This document shows positions 19,862-26,306 of a DNA stretch of 32,382 nucleotides, piece after piece (the stretch's first letter is position 1; each line of letters begins with the position of its first letter). Source of the DNA: Ilumatobacteraceae bacterium (lineage in GTDB: Bacteria > Actinomycetota > Acidimicrobiia > Acidimicrobiales > Ilumatobacteraceae); the NCBI GenBank assembly GCA_021741795.1, contig JAIOXC010000002.1, forward strand, positions 1 through 32,382. Reading direction: 5' to 3'. A model generated the notes under the pieces. The model saw only the letters and a program-made list of their open reading frames with translations, was not told the DNA's origin and ran no database searches. The translations under genes were made by a program, and so were the position numbers.

Positions 19862-20842
19862 ATGAGTGGTAATTTTCGGGGATATGTGAGCCTCAAACCA
19901 CCAATAGTGGGTTCGGAGGGTCGGTTGGTCTCTGGATACAGTGCAGATGTGCCTCCAAGACAACTCTCCCAACAGTCTTTTTTGGCAATTTCACGGATTT
20001 CGCTCGTTTTCCTCTATGCGATCATCATCACCGGCTCGCTGGTGCGTCTCACTGGTTCTGGCCTTGGATGCGCGGATTGGCCACAGTGCAGCACCACTAA
20101 ATTTGTGGATGTCTCTACAGGGCATGCGGCCATCGAGCAAATCAACAGATTGTTCACTGGCATCGTTAGCGCTGCAGTTATTGCAGCCGTTCTGGGCTCA
20201 ATCTTTGTTTCTCCACGCAGGAAGTCGCTGATTTGGCTCTCGAGCGCTCTGGTGGCTGGAGTTTTGGCGCAGGTGATACTTGGGGCAATAGTTGTTTTTA
20301 CTGGTCTGAATCCGTGGTCGAATATGGCCCATTTTCTCGTTTCTTTAGCACTGGTGAGCACTGCCGTGTTTTTGGTTGAACAAGCTGGTGCGACAAACGT
20401 TGATGGCGTTCTGGCGGTAGGCGAAAAAATAGAACCAACTCGTCAAATAACGAGGCGGTTCGCAGACCTCATTCTCGGTCTGTGTGGTTTAGCCATTGTT
20501 TTGGGCACGTTCGTCACTGGTGCTGGCCCACACGCAGGAGACGAGAATGCAATTCGATTGAACTTTGATTTGCGATCAATCACTCGTATTCATAGCGCAA
20601 CGGTCTTGATCTGTATTACTGCGACGTTGATATTTCTTTTTCAGATTGGAAGAAACGCCTCTGAATGGTCGAGGCTCCGGGCGAAATTGGAGATATTCCT
20701 GTTTGTGGCCGTGGCACAGGGGGGTGTGGGTTATCTCCAATACTTTGCTGGTGTGCCTGCGCAATTGGTCGCAGTCCATGTGGCATTCGCTGTAGCTGTG
20801 TGGATCAGTGTGCTTCGGCTGTGGATCGCAGCACGGAAGTAA
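19862..20842 (+). CDS. ctaA: COX15/CtaA-family heme A synthase
   Basis: FLYAIIITGSLVRLTGSGLGCADWPQC, HAAIEQINRLFTG, TFVTGAGPHAGD, HSATVLI; exact start uncertain. Confidence 0.87.
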   Translation: MSGNFRGYVSLKPPIVGSEGRLVSGYSADVPPRQLSQQSFLAISRISLVFLYAIIITGSLVRLTGSGLGCADWPQCSTTKFVDVSTGHAAIEQINRLFTGIVSAAVIAAVLGSIFVSPRRKSLIWLSSALVAGVLAQVILGAIVVFTGLNPWSNMAHFLVSLALVSTAVFLVEQAGATNVDGVLAVGEKIEPTRQITRRFADLILGLCGLAIVLGTFVTGAGPHAGDENAIRLNFDLRSITRIHSATVLICITATLIFLFQIGRNASEWSRLRAKLEIFLFVAVAQGGVGYLQYFAGVPAQLVAVHVAFAVAVWISVLRLWIAARK

Positions 20843-20903
20843 ATGCCCAAATGTGGCTCAATTGTGCTTGACTTGAGGAACTTGATCTAGGGGAGAAACC
20901 GTT

Positions 20904-22226
20904 GTGGTAGTGACTGGTGTTGGAAAGCGGACATATCGCATTGTTCGTGCCTTTGCCGTTGTTGCCGGGGCTCTAGTGCTTTTTGGCTCTGGTGCCAATG
21001 TGGCTTCTGCGGAAGACGGCTTGTCGATTATTGCGTCGGTACAAAACCAGACAGTTGAAGCTGGCGTCTCCCAGAAACAGCCGGTTGCAGGTGTCACGAT
21101 CACGGTAACAACACCCGCTGGAGCCATGATCGGTACGGGAGTGACCGATGTTGCAGGATTGATTTCGTTTCCAATTCCCGCGCGAGACAATTACGTCGTG
21201 ACGTTGGATATAGCGACTCTGCCCAACGGTTTCACGATGATTGATGATGCCAAATCAATCTCAATCGTTAATAAGGACGATTTCACAACCACGGTCAAAC
21301 GCGCAACCTTTTTTACTGGTTCTTCCAATACCTCAACGCAGACGTTGCTCAATCGAATAATTCAACGTGGTGCTGATGGGCTGCGACTTGGCTTGGTCAT
21401 TGCAATGTGCGCAGTTGGTCTTTCGCTTATTTTCGGCACAACTGGACTGACCAATTTTGCGCACGGAGAAATGGTCACTTTTGGTGGATTGATGGCGTTT
21501 TTGTTCAACGTAACGATGGGTATTCCTTTGCTGATCTCGGCTCCGATAGTCGTTGCTCTTGGTGGCTTATTTGGGCTCGCGTTGAACGTATTTATTTTTG
21601 GAAAGCTTCGCAAGCGAGGCGTTGGACTCATTTCGCAGTTAGTCGTCTCCGTTGGCCTGTCGATCGTGTTGCGCAATATGTACTTGTATCAATTTGGAGG
21701 TCGTACGAAACCGCTTAACGACTACAGCGCGCAAACTGTCATGCGACTTGGTCCAACATCAATTACGCCACGAGACTTAACCACCGCAATTCTTTCTTTG
21801 TTGGTGCTAGTGGCAGTTGCACTGTTTATTCAAAAATCGCGGACAGGAAAAGCGATTCGTGCAGTGTCGGATAATCCAGCGTTGGCATCATCAACAGGAA
21901 TTGATACGCAGCGCATCATTCGTATCGTTTGGTTTGCGGGTGGAGCACTGGCGGCACTTGGCGGAATTTTTCGTGGGCTTGACGAGCAGGTGGGTTTCGA
22001 AATGGGTTCGAGACTGGTGTTTTTGATGTTTGCCGCAATCACGTTGGGCGGTCTTGGTTCCGCATTCGGTGCCCTGGTGGGCGGTGTTTTGGTTGGCATT
22101 TTCGTCGAGATGGCATCACTTGTCGTTCCAGCGGAATTGAAAAATGCACCCGCGCTCCTGATCCTGATCATCGTGCTGGTATTCAGGCCGCAGGGAATTT
22201 TGGGCCGTAAGCAGAGGGTTGGTTAA
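20904..22226 (+). CDS. livH: Branched-chain/hydrophobic amino acid ABC transporter permease (LivH) with N-terminal signal peptide and extracytoplasmic beta-sandwich-like domain
   Basis: LivH core GLRLGLVIAMCAVGLSLIFGTTGLTNFAHGEMVTFGG...RAVSDNPALASSTGID...; N-terminus RIVRAFAVVAGALVLFGSGANVASA followed by PVAGVTITVTTPAGAMIGTGVTDVAGLISFPIPARDNYVVTLDIATLPNGF. SD GGGGAG before GTG. Confidence 0.92.
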   Translation: MVVTGVGKRTYRIVRAFAVVAGALVLFGSGANVASAEDGLSIIASVQNQTVEAGVSQKQPVAGVTITVTTPAGAMIGTGVTDVAGLISFPIPARDNYVVTLDIATLPNGFTMIDDAKSISIVNKDDFTTTVKRATFFTGSSNTSTQTLLNRIIQRGADGLRLGLVIAMCAVGLSLIFGTTGLTNFAHGEMVTFGGLMAFLFNVTMGIPLLISAPIVVALGGLFGLALNVFIFGKLRKRGVGLISQLVVSVGLSIVLRNMYLYQFGGRTKPLNDYSAQTVMRLGPTSITPRDLTTAILSLLVLVAVALFIQKSRTGKAIRAVSDNPALASSTGIDTQRIIRIVWFAGGALAALGGIFRGLDEQVGFEMGSRLVFLMFAAITLGGLGSAFGALVGGVLVGIFVEMASLVVPAELKNAPALLILIIVLVFRPQGILGRKQRVG

Positions 22227-22229
22227 CAC

Positions 22230-23234
22230 ATGGACTGGATAAACATTTTTCAAAACACGTGCAAGGCATTGACGGGTGTTGATGCCGCATACTTCGCGCT
22301 TGCAGCAATTGGACTTAATGTGCAGTTCGGTTACACCGGTTTGCTCAACTTTGGACAAGCAGCATTTATGGCCTGTGGCGCATACGGAATCGGAATGACA
22401 TCCAAATATTTCGGTATCGGAATGTGGTGGGGCATCCCAATTGGAATGGCGTTTGTCATCGTTCTTGCACTTCTTGTAGGCATTCCGACTCTGAGATTGC
22501 GCGCCGATTACCTTGCGATTGTCACCATCGCCTTGGCGGAAATGGTGCGCTTGATCGTGCGCTCAGTGCGCTTCAAACAATATTTCGGTGGAAGCGACGG
22601 CATCAACGGCTTTAGTTTGCAATTCCGGGAAATGAGCCCGTTTGATCCTGGCGCCCAGTACGGAATTAGACCATTTCAATACAGCGGTTACACGGTGTGG
22701 ACCCTCTTGGTCGGTTGGGCACTTGTCGCAATCTTTGCGACGCTCGTATTCATGTTGATGCGAAGCCCATGGGGACGCGTTATCAAAGCGATTCGCGAAG
22801 ACGAGGACGCCGTGCGAAGTCTTGGCAAAAGTGTGTACAGCTACAAAATGCAATCGCTCATGATTGGTGGACTCATCGGCATGTTTAGCGGTGTCGTTTT
22901 TGCACTCGATCGTGGTTCTGTGCAGCCAGACAACTACAGCCGTGACGTGACCTTCTACATCTTGACTGCACTAGTGCTCGGCGGAGTTGCAAAAGTTTCT
23001 GGGTCGATCGTCGGATCAATGCTTTTCTGGGGAATTTTCGTGTTCTGTGACAACTTCTTGCGTGAGTTGACGAAGGATGAGCCGCTCAAAATCTTTGGTG
23101 TGACAGTGATGCAAAAGATCCAGGTTGGGGCAATCAACTACATGTTGATCGGTGTTGGATTGATGCTGCTGATGACATTTCGCCCGCAGGGTATTTTTGG
23201 AAACCGCAAAGAGATGGCCCTAGATGCCCGCTGA
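22230..23234 (+). CDS. livM: Branched-chain amino acid ABC transporter permease
   Basis: FALAAIGLNVQFGYTGLLNFGQAAFMACGAYG, LRLRADYLAIVTIALAEMVRL, SPWGRVIKAIREDEDAVRSLGK. Confidence 0.93.
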   Translation: MDWINIFQNTCKALTGVDAAYFALAAIGLNVQFGYTGLLNFGQAAFMACGAYGIGMTSKYFGIGMWWGIPIGMAFVIVLALLVGIPTLRLRADYLAIVTIALAEMVRLIVRSVRFKQYFGGSDGINGFSLQFREMSPFDPGAQYGIRPFQYSGYTVWTLLVGWALVAIFATLVFMLMRSPWGRVIKAIREDEDAVRSLGKSVYSYKMQSLMIGGLIGMFSGVVFALDRGSVQPDNYSRDVTFYILTALVLGGVAKVSGSIVGSMLFWGIFVFCDNFLRELTKDEPLKIFGVTVMQKIQVGAINYMLIGVGLMLLMTFRPQGIFGNRKEMALDAR

Positions 23235-24099
23235 AACCAAATTTTCCGACGCACAGGCTCGAGCCACTGCCGCATTAGCGACCGTCGCGCCAACGCCAGG
23301 AGCGTCAAAACCCGACCCAATTTTGCTTGCTGACAAAATTCAAAAACATTTCGGTGGCGTTGTTGCAGTTGATGTTGAGCACATTGAAGTGCAACGAGGG
23401 TCAATCACAGCGTTGATAGGCCCTAACGGTGCCGGAAAGACAACGCTGTTCAATTTGCTGACTGGTTTCGATACTCCAGACACAGGAGAATGGCGATTTG
23501 ACGGTCGCAGCATGGAGAAAATTGTTGCGCACAAGACCGCAGCAATGGGAATGATCCGCACTTTTCAGTTGACAAAGAGTCTGACCAAAATGTCAGTAAT
23601 TGAAAATATGAAACTTGGCGCGACGCATCAGGTTGGCGAAAAGTGGTGGAACGGCTTACTTCCGTTTCGCTGGCGCAAGCAGGAGCAGATTATTGAGCAG
23701 CGTGCAGATGAGTTGCTGAAGCGATTCAAGCTCGACCACATGCGCGGTGAATACGCGGGAACGTTGTCTGGCGGTCAGCGCAAGCTACTCGAAATGGCAC
23801 GCGCGTTGATGACTAACCCACGTTTGGTAATGCTTGACGAGCCAATGGCAGGTGTAAACCCTGCACTCAAACAAAATCTGCTCGAGCACATCCGTGGACT
23901 TCGCGACGACGGCATGACGGTGTTGTTTGTCGAGCACGATATGGACATGGTCAACGATGTGTCTGATTGGGTGATCGTGATGGCCGAAGGTCGTGTGATC
24001 GCCGAGGGAACACCAGCACAAATCTCATCCAACCCTGCAGTGATCGAGGCGTATTTGGGGAGTCACCAAGGCAAGTCATTGATGGAGGACAAATCATGA
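23224..24099 (+). CDS. livG: Branched-chain amino acid ABC transporter ATP-binding protein
   Basis: HFGGVVAVDVEHIEVQRGSITALIGPNGAGKTTLFNLLTG, TFQLTKSLTKMSVIEN, LSGGQRKLLEMARALM, LDEPMAGVNP. Confidence 0.93.
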   Translation: MPAETKFSDAQARATAALATVAPTPGASKPDPILLADKIQKHFGGVVAVDVEHIEVQRGSITALIGPNGAGKTTLFNLLTGFDTPDTGEWRFDGRSMEKIVAHKTAAMGMIRTFQLTKSLTKMSVIENMKLGATHQVGEKWWNGLLPFRWRKQEQIIEQRADELLKRFKLDHMRGEYAGTLSGGQRKLLEMARALMTNPRLVMLDEPMAGVNPALKQNLLEHIRGLRDDGMTVLFVEHDMDMVNDVSDWVIVMAEGRVIAEGTPAQISSNPAVIEAYLGSHQGKSLMEDKS

Positions 24100-24833
24100 G
24101 TGACGATCGCGTACTTGCCGTTGATGAGTTGGTAGCTGGATATATTCCCGAAGTCAACATTCTGAATGGTTGCAACATCGTGGTAGGCAAGGGCGAGTTT
24201 GTCGGTGTCATCGGACCCAACGGCGCAGGCAAGTCAACCGTGCTCAAAGCAATTCTTGGACAATGTGCAGTTCGATCTGGAACATCAACTTTCTTGGGTG
24301 AGAACATCACAGGTCTGCAGGCTCACCAACTTGTCGAGCGTGGTGTTGGCTATGTGCCGCAAACGCAAAACGTGTTTCAAAGCCTGACCGTTGCAGAGAA
24401 CCTGGAGATGGGTTGCTTCATTAAGCCAGAAGTGTTTAACGAGCGTTTTGACTATGTGACCACGTTGTTTCCAAAACTTGGTGAGCGTGCAACTCAAAAA
24501 GCTGGTTCGCTGTCAGGCGGTGAACGCCAAATGGTTGCAATGGGTCGAGCACTGATGATGGAACCGAAGTTGTTGTTGCTGGATGAGCCGTCAGCGGGCT
24601 TGTCGCCTGTCTTGCAAGATGAAGTATTTATCCAATGCAAGCGAATCAATGCGGAAGGAATTGCAATCTTGATGGTTGAGCAGAATGCACGGCGTTGTTT
24701 GCAAGTTGTTGACAGGGGATATGTGCTTGACCAAGGTCGCAATGCATACACCGGCACTGGTCGTTCGTTGCTTGAAGATCCAAATGTGATCAGGCTGTAC
24801 TTGGGAACCCTCGCCAAAGCCTCCGGTGGCTGA
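24096..24833 (+). CDS. livF: Branched-chain amino acid ABC transporter ATP-binding protein
   Basis: VVGKGEFVGVIGPNGAGKSTVLKAILG, VPQTQNVFQSLTVAENLEMG, LSGGERQMVAMGRALM, LDEPSAGLSP; ATGA overlap with livG (start 24096 rather than the track's 23967). Confidence 0.93.
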   Translation: MSDDRVLAVDELVAGYIPEVNILNGCNIVVGKGEFVGVIGPNGAGKSTVLKAILGQCAVRSGTSTFLGENITGLQAHQLVERGVGYVPQTQNVFQSLTVAENLEMGCFIKPEVFNERFDYVTTLFPKLGERATQKAGSLSGGERQMVAMGRALMMEPKLLLLDEPSAGLSPVLQDEVFIQCKRINAEGIAILMVEQNARRCLQVVDRGYVLDQGRNAYTGTGRSLLEDPNVIRLYLGTLAKASGG

Positions 24834-24856
24834 AACTCGATAGGTGAATGGTCTGA

Positions 24857-24942
24857 GGCCCGGGCGTGTGCCCAGGGAAATGAAAAGGCCCCGGGCTATC
24901 GCCCGGGGAAATGAAAAGGCCCCGGGCTTTCGCCCGGGGCCC
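24857..24942 (-). terminator. Tandem array of three intrinsic-terminator-like hairpins (about 30-31 nt period)
   Basis: Minus strand reads GGCCCCGGGC-GAAA-GCCCGGGGCC-TTTTCATTT, CCCCGGGC-GATA-GCCCGGGGCC-TTTTCATTT, CCCTGGGC-ACAC-GCCCGGGCC-TCAG: GC-rich stems, first two followed by TTTT. Confidence 0.85.
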
Positions 24943-24947
24943 TACAT

Positions 24948-24965
24948 ATAGTTCTGAAGAACTAT
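24948..24965. other. Additional short inverted repeat just beyond the substrate-binding-protein stop codon
   Basis: ATAGTTC-TGAA-GAACTAT, 7-bp perfect arms. Confidence 0.55.
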
Positions 24966-24968
24966 GAG

Positions 24969-26306
24969 TTACTTACCAGCGTCAAAGTTCTCGCCGAGTG
25001 CGTTACCCATGTTGCCGTCACAACCGTAGACCTTCTTGACTTTTGGTCCAATGCCTTGCTCCACCATGGTGCGCAAGATACGTGAGCCTTCGTCGAAAGT
25101 TACGAGCATGATTGCGTCTGGGTTAGCAGCAACAACCTCAGCAACTTCAGCATCAAATGAAACTGCAGCTGGATCGTAGATCTTGGTGCCGAGGACTGAA
25201 ACGCCCGCTGCTTCAAGATTCTTGCCGATCGATGCTGCAAGTCCTGTGCCGTATGCATCGTCGAGAGCCAAGATGTACACCGAAGCGTTGCCATCTCCTG
25301 CGATCAAACCTGCAAGCACCGCACCCTGAAGGGTGTCTGGTGGTGCGTTACGGAAGTACAAAGCGCTGTCAGCATAAGTTGACAATGCATCTGATGTGTT
25401 TGCTGGGCTGAACTGAACAACGCCTGCCTGAGTGATCTTGTCGATCACTTTCAACGAAACGCCGGACGATGCTGCACCAATGATGGCGTCAACATTCTCG
25501 CTCAAGAGACGATCAACCGTGGTTGATGCTGTGTCTGTTGAGTTGTCACCAGAGTCGCCTTGGCTGTAAAGAACTTCTTTACCAAGTACGCCACCGGCTG
25601 CATTGACCAAGCTCAATGCGTATTCAACGCCTGCGAATTCTGGAGCACCAAGGAATGCAAGGTTGCCAGTTTCTGGAAGCATTGTTCCGATTTTCAACTG
25701 TCCGTCACCCTTACGAACAACGGTTGTCTTTTGTGCATCAACGTAGTCTGACTCTGGAGCAGCTGCCGGAATGTATGTGGCATTTGCGTAGTCAAAGCGG
25801 TTCGTTGCATCAAAAGTAAGAACGCCGTAGGAAGCCTCAATTGGCTCGCCGTTGCCGTTCATTGTGTTTGGACCAGAAGCACCGTCGTAGTCAATGTCGG
25901 TTCCTGCTTGAACAAGAGCAACACAGTCTGCGAAAGTTGTGCACTTCTCGCCGTCACGTGAAACAGTGATGATCGAGTCAGCAAGTGCGCTGCCATCGGT
26001 CTGTGCTGCTTCTGCTGCAAGAGCGATCAACATCACAGCGTCGAATGCTTCTGCGGTGTACGAGTAGTCAACGAGTGCATCGTTGCCTGCTGCGGTCCAG
26101 AAAGCGTTAACGCCATCTTTGAACTCTGCGGAAAGTTCTACGAGTGGCATTGTGCCCTGCATGCCTTCCAAGTCGCCACCAGCGGCCGGAGCCTCTACTG
26201 CGACAGTCTCTTCTGTTGCTGCATCGTCGCTGCTGCCACAGGAAACAGCAACAAAGCTGAGACCCACAACAAGAGCACCGAAGCGCTTCAAGTTTGATTT
26301 CTTCAT
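24969..26306 (-). CDS. HAAT-family periplasmic substrate-binding lipoprotein, apparently circularly permuted
   Basis: Lipobox LSFVAVSCGSS; residues ~45-187 (DLEGMQGTMPLVELSAEF...YSYTAEAFDAVMLIALAAEAA...KCTTFADCVALVQAGTDIDYDGASGP...EASYGVLTF) resemble the canonical C-terminal part; residues ~203-445 (LKIGTMLPETGNLAFLGAPEFAGVEYALSLVNAAGG...VYGCDGNMGNALGENFDAGK*) resemble the canonical N-terminal part. Confidence 0.9.
   Translation of the reverse strand: MKKSNLKRFGALVVGLSFVAVSCGSSDDAATEETVAVEAPAAGGDLEGMQGTMPLVELSAEFKDGVNAFWTAAGNDALVDYSYTAEAFDAVMLIALAAEAAQTDGSALADSIITVSRDGEKCTTFADCVALVQAGTDIDYDGASGPNTMNGNGEPIEASYGVLTFDATNRFDYANATYIPAAAPESDYVDAQKTTVVRKGDGQLKIGTMLPETGNLAFLGAPEFAGVEYALSLVNAAGGVLGKEVLYSQGDSGDNSTDTASTTVDRLLSENVDAIIGAASSGVSLKVIDKITQAGVVQFSPANTSDALSTYADSALYFRNAPPDTLQGAVLAGLIAGDGNASVYILALDDAYGTGLAASIGKNLEAAGVSVLGTKIYDPAAVSFDAEVAEVVAANPDAIMLVTFDEGSRILRTMVEQGIGPKVKKVYGCDGNMGNALGENFDAGK

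Follow-up and report, generated by a model that had tools for sequence, protein, structure and literature searches.

A probable natural circular permutation in a LivJ-type binding lipoprotein encoded beside a livHMGF importer

Our results show that the DNA analysed here (a stretch of 32,382 nucleotides, the window) contains a gene for a HAAT/LivJ-type substrate-binding protein (SBP) whose two halves stand in swapped order. We are highly confident that its product, a binding lipoprotein of type I (LivJ/HAAT-like), is a true circular permutant; it most likely serves the adjacent livHMGF importer, which is of the amino-acid type, as substrate receptor. The gene consists of the following parts:

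24969 to 26306, reverse strand: the circularly permuted HAAT/LivJ-type SBP gene (445 aa), an open frame with swapped blocks found in dozens of genomes
26238 to 26306, reverse strand: lipoprotein signal peptide with lipobox VAVSC (Cys23), aa 1–23, recognised in the sequence
26178 to 26237, reverse strand: lipid-anchor tether, disordered and variable by pLDDT and homolog lengths, aa 24–43
25758 to 26177, reverse strand: block 1, the canonical C-terminal part (DLEGMQGT...ATYIPAA), aa 44–183, matching PF01094 positions 273–351
25698 to 25757, reverse strand: connector from the old C-terminus to the old N-terminus, aa 184–203, absent from canonical relatives
24972 to 25697, reverse strand: block 2, the canonical N-terminal part (KIGTMLPETG...NFDAGK), aa 204–445, matching PF13458 positions 2–226

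A sequence-only reading of this DNA had placed the lipobox, the DLEGMQGT...RF block, the linker and the LKIGTMLPETG...NFDAGK-stop block correctly (DLEGM starts at nt 26174, KIG at about 25697). Across 26 aligned permuted homologs Cys23 and Gly24 are invariant, and the length of the tether varies strongly between homologs. The connector closes with (R/K)xGDGxLxIG, the motif with which the mature domain of canonical relatives begins. Block 2 ends at the same point in all main-clade rows inspected, 245 or 246 residues past the connector end.

The same reading had proposed that the blocks are swapped, which the coordinates of profiles and structures confirm. The protein matches PF13458 (Peripla_BP_6) with 125 bits against a cut-off of 31.7, and thus belongs to the family by sequence. 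However, the profile positions do not increase monotonically along the protein: the C-terminal ones come first, which makes it a permuted derivative of PF13458 proteins and not a canonical member. On their own, aa 44–200 match only the C-terminal end of PF01094 (ANF_receptor, positions 273–351 of 353), and aa 201–445 match positions 2–226 of the 343 in PF13458. Among solved structures, where the best matches are LivJ-type, aa 203–435 align to residues 7–234 of 4gnr and aa 44–113 to residues 246–311 (a weak match when alone). The cut falls near residues 235–246 of 4gnr, and no solved structure in the PDB covers both blocks in the permuted order in one stretch. As had been suspected, domain searches conceal the permutation: the PF13458 hit looks normal, and annotation pipelines therefore pass over it.

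Comparison with normal-order relatives leads to the same result. BLAST against one of them (L092) gives two crossed pieces (E 1e-98 and 5e-31), but a single HSP (E 4e-138) once the sequence is rotated. The global score against L092 is 1023 for the rotated, 746 for the native and about 30 for shuffled sequences; the swapped order is far beyond chance. The rotated protein aligns to normal-order relatives in one continuous alignment at 56% identity, with 47–50% identity to canonical relatives in block 1 and 51–62% in block 2. The residues of both new ends, GENFDAGK-stop and GGDLEGMQGTMPL in the window protein, are adjacent in canonical relatives (e.g., GEQFTEPGALEGMKGTTPL in L094). Hence, the cut was made with almost nothing lost or repeated, in line with the proposal of a swap without evident loss.

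The predicted structure is one confident fold. An AlphaFold2 model built with 26 permuted homologs has a mean pLDDT of 86.3 and a pTM of 0.84; only aa 1–40 fall below 50, and the connector, at about 90, is predicted to be well ordered. Foldseek is sequential and aligns in chain order. Against LivJ-type structures of about 345 residues it aligned no more than about 240 columns, which is what a permutation should give, with a TM of about 0.5–0.6 over the target for the better matches.

The SBP is encoded together with livHMGF permease and ATPase genes, as seen from the gene order in the window and from synteny:

20904 to 22226, forward strand: livH permease with an N-terminal extracellular extension; PF02653 at aa 158–425
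22230 to 23234, forward strand: livM permease; the livHMGF order beside the SBP is conserved in permuted and canonical genomes
23224 to 24099, forward strand: livG ATPase, part of the conserved livHMGF order
24096 to 24833, forward strand: livF ATPase, with an ATG start that overlaps the end of livG

The SBP gene is convergent to livHMGF, and the order COX15 - livHMGF > < SBP < tsaC - IMPDH > is found in permuted and many canonical genomes. Between the convergent SBP and livF genes lie two near-identical GC-rich hairpins followed by T runs (window 24890–24945), which are probably terminators. The extension of LivH (aa 1 to about 130, window 20904–21300) precedes the permease domain; its aa 55–127 give weak SdrD_B/bMG3 matches below the cut-offs, and the extension may serve to dock the receptor.

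Two members of the window's own genus (genomes G003 and G017) carry an SBP in normal order at this locus. Flanks and leader match the window (at 86–91% on the DNA level in G003), and the whole segment from window 20830 to 26206, which comprises livHMGF and the mature SBP, is replaced by a diverged canonical cassette. The breakpoints lie near 20830 and 26206, the latter just downstream of the lipobox (L079, L080). Since livHMGF and the mature SBP are exchanged as one block, the receptor moves with its permease and one form can take the place of the other at the locus. A dedicated permease partner of permuted SBPs is unsupported: the livM tree needs four changes of permuted status.

Where does the permuted order come from? 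In a tree built after all sequences had been rotated to the same order, the main permuted clade (33 rows, 100/98) branches from within canonical proteins. When a further permuted form, type B, is added, the main clade still falls among canonical proteins (19 rows, 100/99). On the evidence of these trees, the permuted order is derived among canonical relatives. Two permuted proteins of another class (L144 and L145) are sister to the canonical L125 (100/97), and a tree constrained to join them to the main clade is rejected (AU p = 0.00027), which speaks against a single origin of all permuted forms. Their linker is SGGESDGVLKIG, resembling that of nearby canonical rows (CTGESDGVLKIG); the main-clade linker is R.GDGVLKIG.

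Type B opens with VxLYGTDGN and finishes with ADAGVxIRH or a similar sequence; its cut is therefore about 25 residues upstream. All 49 genomes of one genus have it (many of these assemblies are a single contig, and one copy is frame-shifted), as have two genomes of family f167. The tree does not reject a shared origin with the main clade (p = 0.15 and 0.18), but the different cut means that at least a second trimming was needed. Judged from trees and cut sites together, proteins of this kind were permuted independently at least twice in Actinomycetota, at two cut sites, and the number of independent origins may be three. In f167, type B adjoins livHMGF. The loci inspected in the 49-genome genus (e.g., L168:5804–7156) have it as an orphan with no importer genes next to it, and it sits on a long branch, which suggests a new role; no close livM was found in the six genomes of that genus that were checked.

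What would the permutation change for the protein? In LivJ structures the motifs SSG, SPANT, YGxGL and DGN form the pocket. All four are kept in both the permuted and the canonical arrangement, and from this and from established family knowledge we infer that the permuted protein is still a Venus-flytrap receptor. The cut lies at what we take, from the known LivJ fold, to be the second crossing between the lobes, within the hinge or close to it. The flexible lipid tether would enter there instead of at the first N-lobe strand, and the ordered connector would add a fourth lobe-to-lobe crossing. The docking geometry to the permeases would presumably change as well.

Whether this had consequences for the bacterium is an even call. 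The permutation could just as well be selectively neutral, with a new anchor point that has no effect, a reading that concerns consequence and is compatible with a genuine permutation. In favor of neutrality, a single locus in one genus can hold either a canonical or a permuted cassette, each replacing the other, and permuted proteins pair with several permease lineages. On the other hand, cuts within about 25 residues of each other recur in two or three lineages, which suggests either strong structural permissiveness at this place or an advantage, the two being inseparable here. A more far-reaching proposal, which we put forward tentatively and think somewhat more likely to be wrong than right, is that the receptor family is a permutation hot spot. 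There would have been three independent permutations, two at nearly the same cut and one about 25 residues upstream, all adjoining the second hinge crossing. They would have been driven by selection on the point where lipid tether and flytrap meet, and each form, canonical or permuted, would be traded as part of a whole importer cassette.

The route to the permuted gene probably led through a tandem duplication. Canonical copies would have been duplicated in tandem and fused in frame to give N1C1-N2C2. N1 would then have been lost, with the leader rejoined directly to C1, and C2 would have been lost as well, leaving leader-C1-linker-N2. Permutation by duplication predicts tandem intermediates (PMC3320104). 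Such intermediates exist in the family: two in-frame fusions of two full canonical HAAT domains behind one leader (989 and 818 aa; L166:3522–6488, L167:3824–6277), although these belong to a more distant canonical branch and are not sister to the permuted clade. Moreover, Nonomuraea gerenzanensis carries three canonical copies head-to-tail beside livF, and another genome (G118) two. At its end the connector carries the motif that canonical relatives have just ahead of their first strand: GDG in the main clade and, as in the canonical rows nearby, GESDG in L144/L145. This is expected if the start of a second copy was fused behind the end of a first.

It is unlikely that the permutation arose instead through gene fission and refusion (or cut-and-paste). 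This route is compatible with the sequences, and no intermediate trimmed at one end was found among the family's sequences. However, canonical copies do exist in the family both fused in tandem and head-to-tail, separately encoded halves are not seen at intact loci, and the pre-strand motif at the connector end speaks for duplication. The saposin/swaposin pair and DNA methyltransferases, which were permuted by duplication (PMC3320104), resemble the present family in that tandem intermediates are present, and differ in that a partly trimmed intermediate was not found here.

Another alternative, which we consider very improbable, is that the gene is a chimera, made from the C-terminal half of one paralog and the N-terminal half of another. 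The nearest canonical rows do differ by half (L094 and L110 for the N half; L092, L149 and L094 for the C half, which has few columns). Both halves nevertheless point to the same neighborhood, L094 being near in both, and in the trees of the separate blocks the main permuted clade stays together both times. In addition, hardly any sequence is missing or duplicated where the two cut ends join. If near-identical tandem copies had recombined, the result could not be told apart from a permutation.

The sequence-only reading had guessed that the permutation is shared by a whole lineage. We searched relatives, the order and a species-wide genome set, and obtained a single match through both blocks in many loci, at identities down to about 50%. 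Dozens of genomes, which represent at least eight of the order's families (f1, f3, f9, f13, f19, f41, f42 and f47), have the permuted order with the same cut, and this bears the guess out. Independent assemblies, inspected for a normal gene order, have the permuted order instead. dN/dS against four relatives is 0.05–0.27 in both blocks, a sign of purifying selection that rules out a pseudogene. A misassembly had to be excluded because the window's assembly is fragmented (109 contigs) and 68% complete, but an assembly or binning artefact, in which two fragments of a canonical gene were joined in the wrong order, is refuted by the agreement in order and cut among many assemblies that different projects produced independently, by the type B form in many single-contig genomes, by intact flanking synteny on both sides and by purifying selection across both blocks.

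That a natural permutation would be unusual in this class, as the reading had also held, needs refining. The HAAT/LivJ case appears new: our search of mostly open-access literature found no paper on a permuted HAAT/LivJ protein. But a type I precedent is known: the crystallised sugar-binding lipoprotein TpMglB-2 (Tp0684) of Treponema pallidum is permuted and was named 'Type Ic / Cluster Bc'. Its cut lies within the N lobe, the first three N-lobe strands having moved to the C-terminus, and its authors also suspect a link to membrane tethering (PMC4990184). Both are natural, lineage-wide permutations of a type I bilobed binding lipoprotein with an extra fourth inter-lobe crossing, in our case a putative one. 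The differences are threefold. First, TpMglB-2 belongs to the sugar (MglB-like) family, whereas the window protein is HAAT/LivJ and has no match to PF13407 (MglB-like) up to E 1. Second, the window protein is cut at or just before the presumed second lobe crossing. Third, canonical relatives occur at its locus, and the permuted order arose more than once. With canonical LivJ/HAAT proteins (PF13458; 4gnr, 3ipc, 4n0q, 2lbp) the window protein shares domain family, motifs and livHMGF neighbors; it differs in block order, anchor position and the presence of the connector.

As a rule, natural circular permutations come to light long after they happened, without a close unpermuted relative at the same place. 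Here, canonical and permuted forms that are about 50% identical share one locus in one genus. Canonical tandem fusions survive and more than one origin is visible, which makes it possible to test whether a topology changes via fused tandem duplicates. With both forms at hand, one could also test whether ABC import depends on where a substrate-binding lipoprotein is anchored.

Several unusual genes turned up beside the permuted ones. The Nonomuraea hit H1, a candidate for a permuted full-length match, consists of canonical copies in tandem. From their tblastn matches, two archaeal loci (L077 and L078; Thalassarchaeaceae, Poseidoniales), each with a frame of about 1080 aa, seemed to be permuted. 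In L077 several canonical binding domains form one long fusion, with an SBP_bac_3-type region and two HAAT domains (L077:1690–4947), and the open frame of L078 has two HAAT N-blocks (L078:1963–5181). In another open frame (L095:2–2518) a canonical HAAT binding protein is apparently fused to a second, different binding protein. Finally, one contig carries two permuted genes head-to-tail (L072:1–3997). Hence, duplication continues after permutation.
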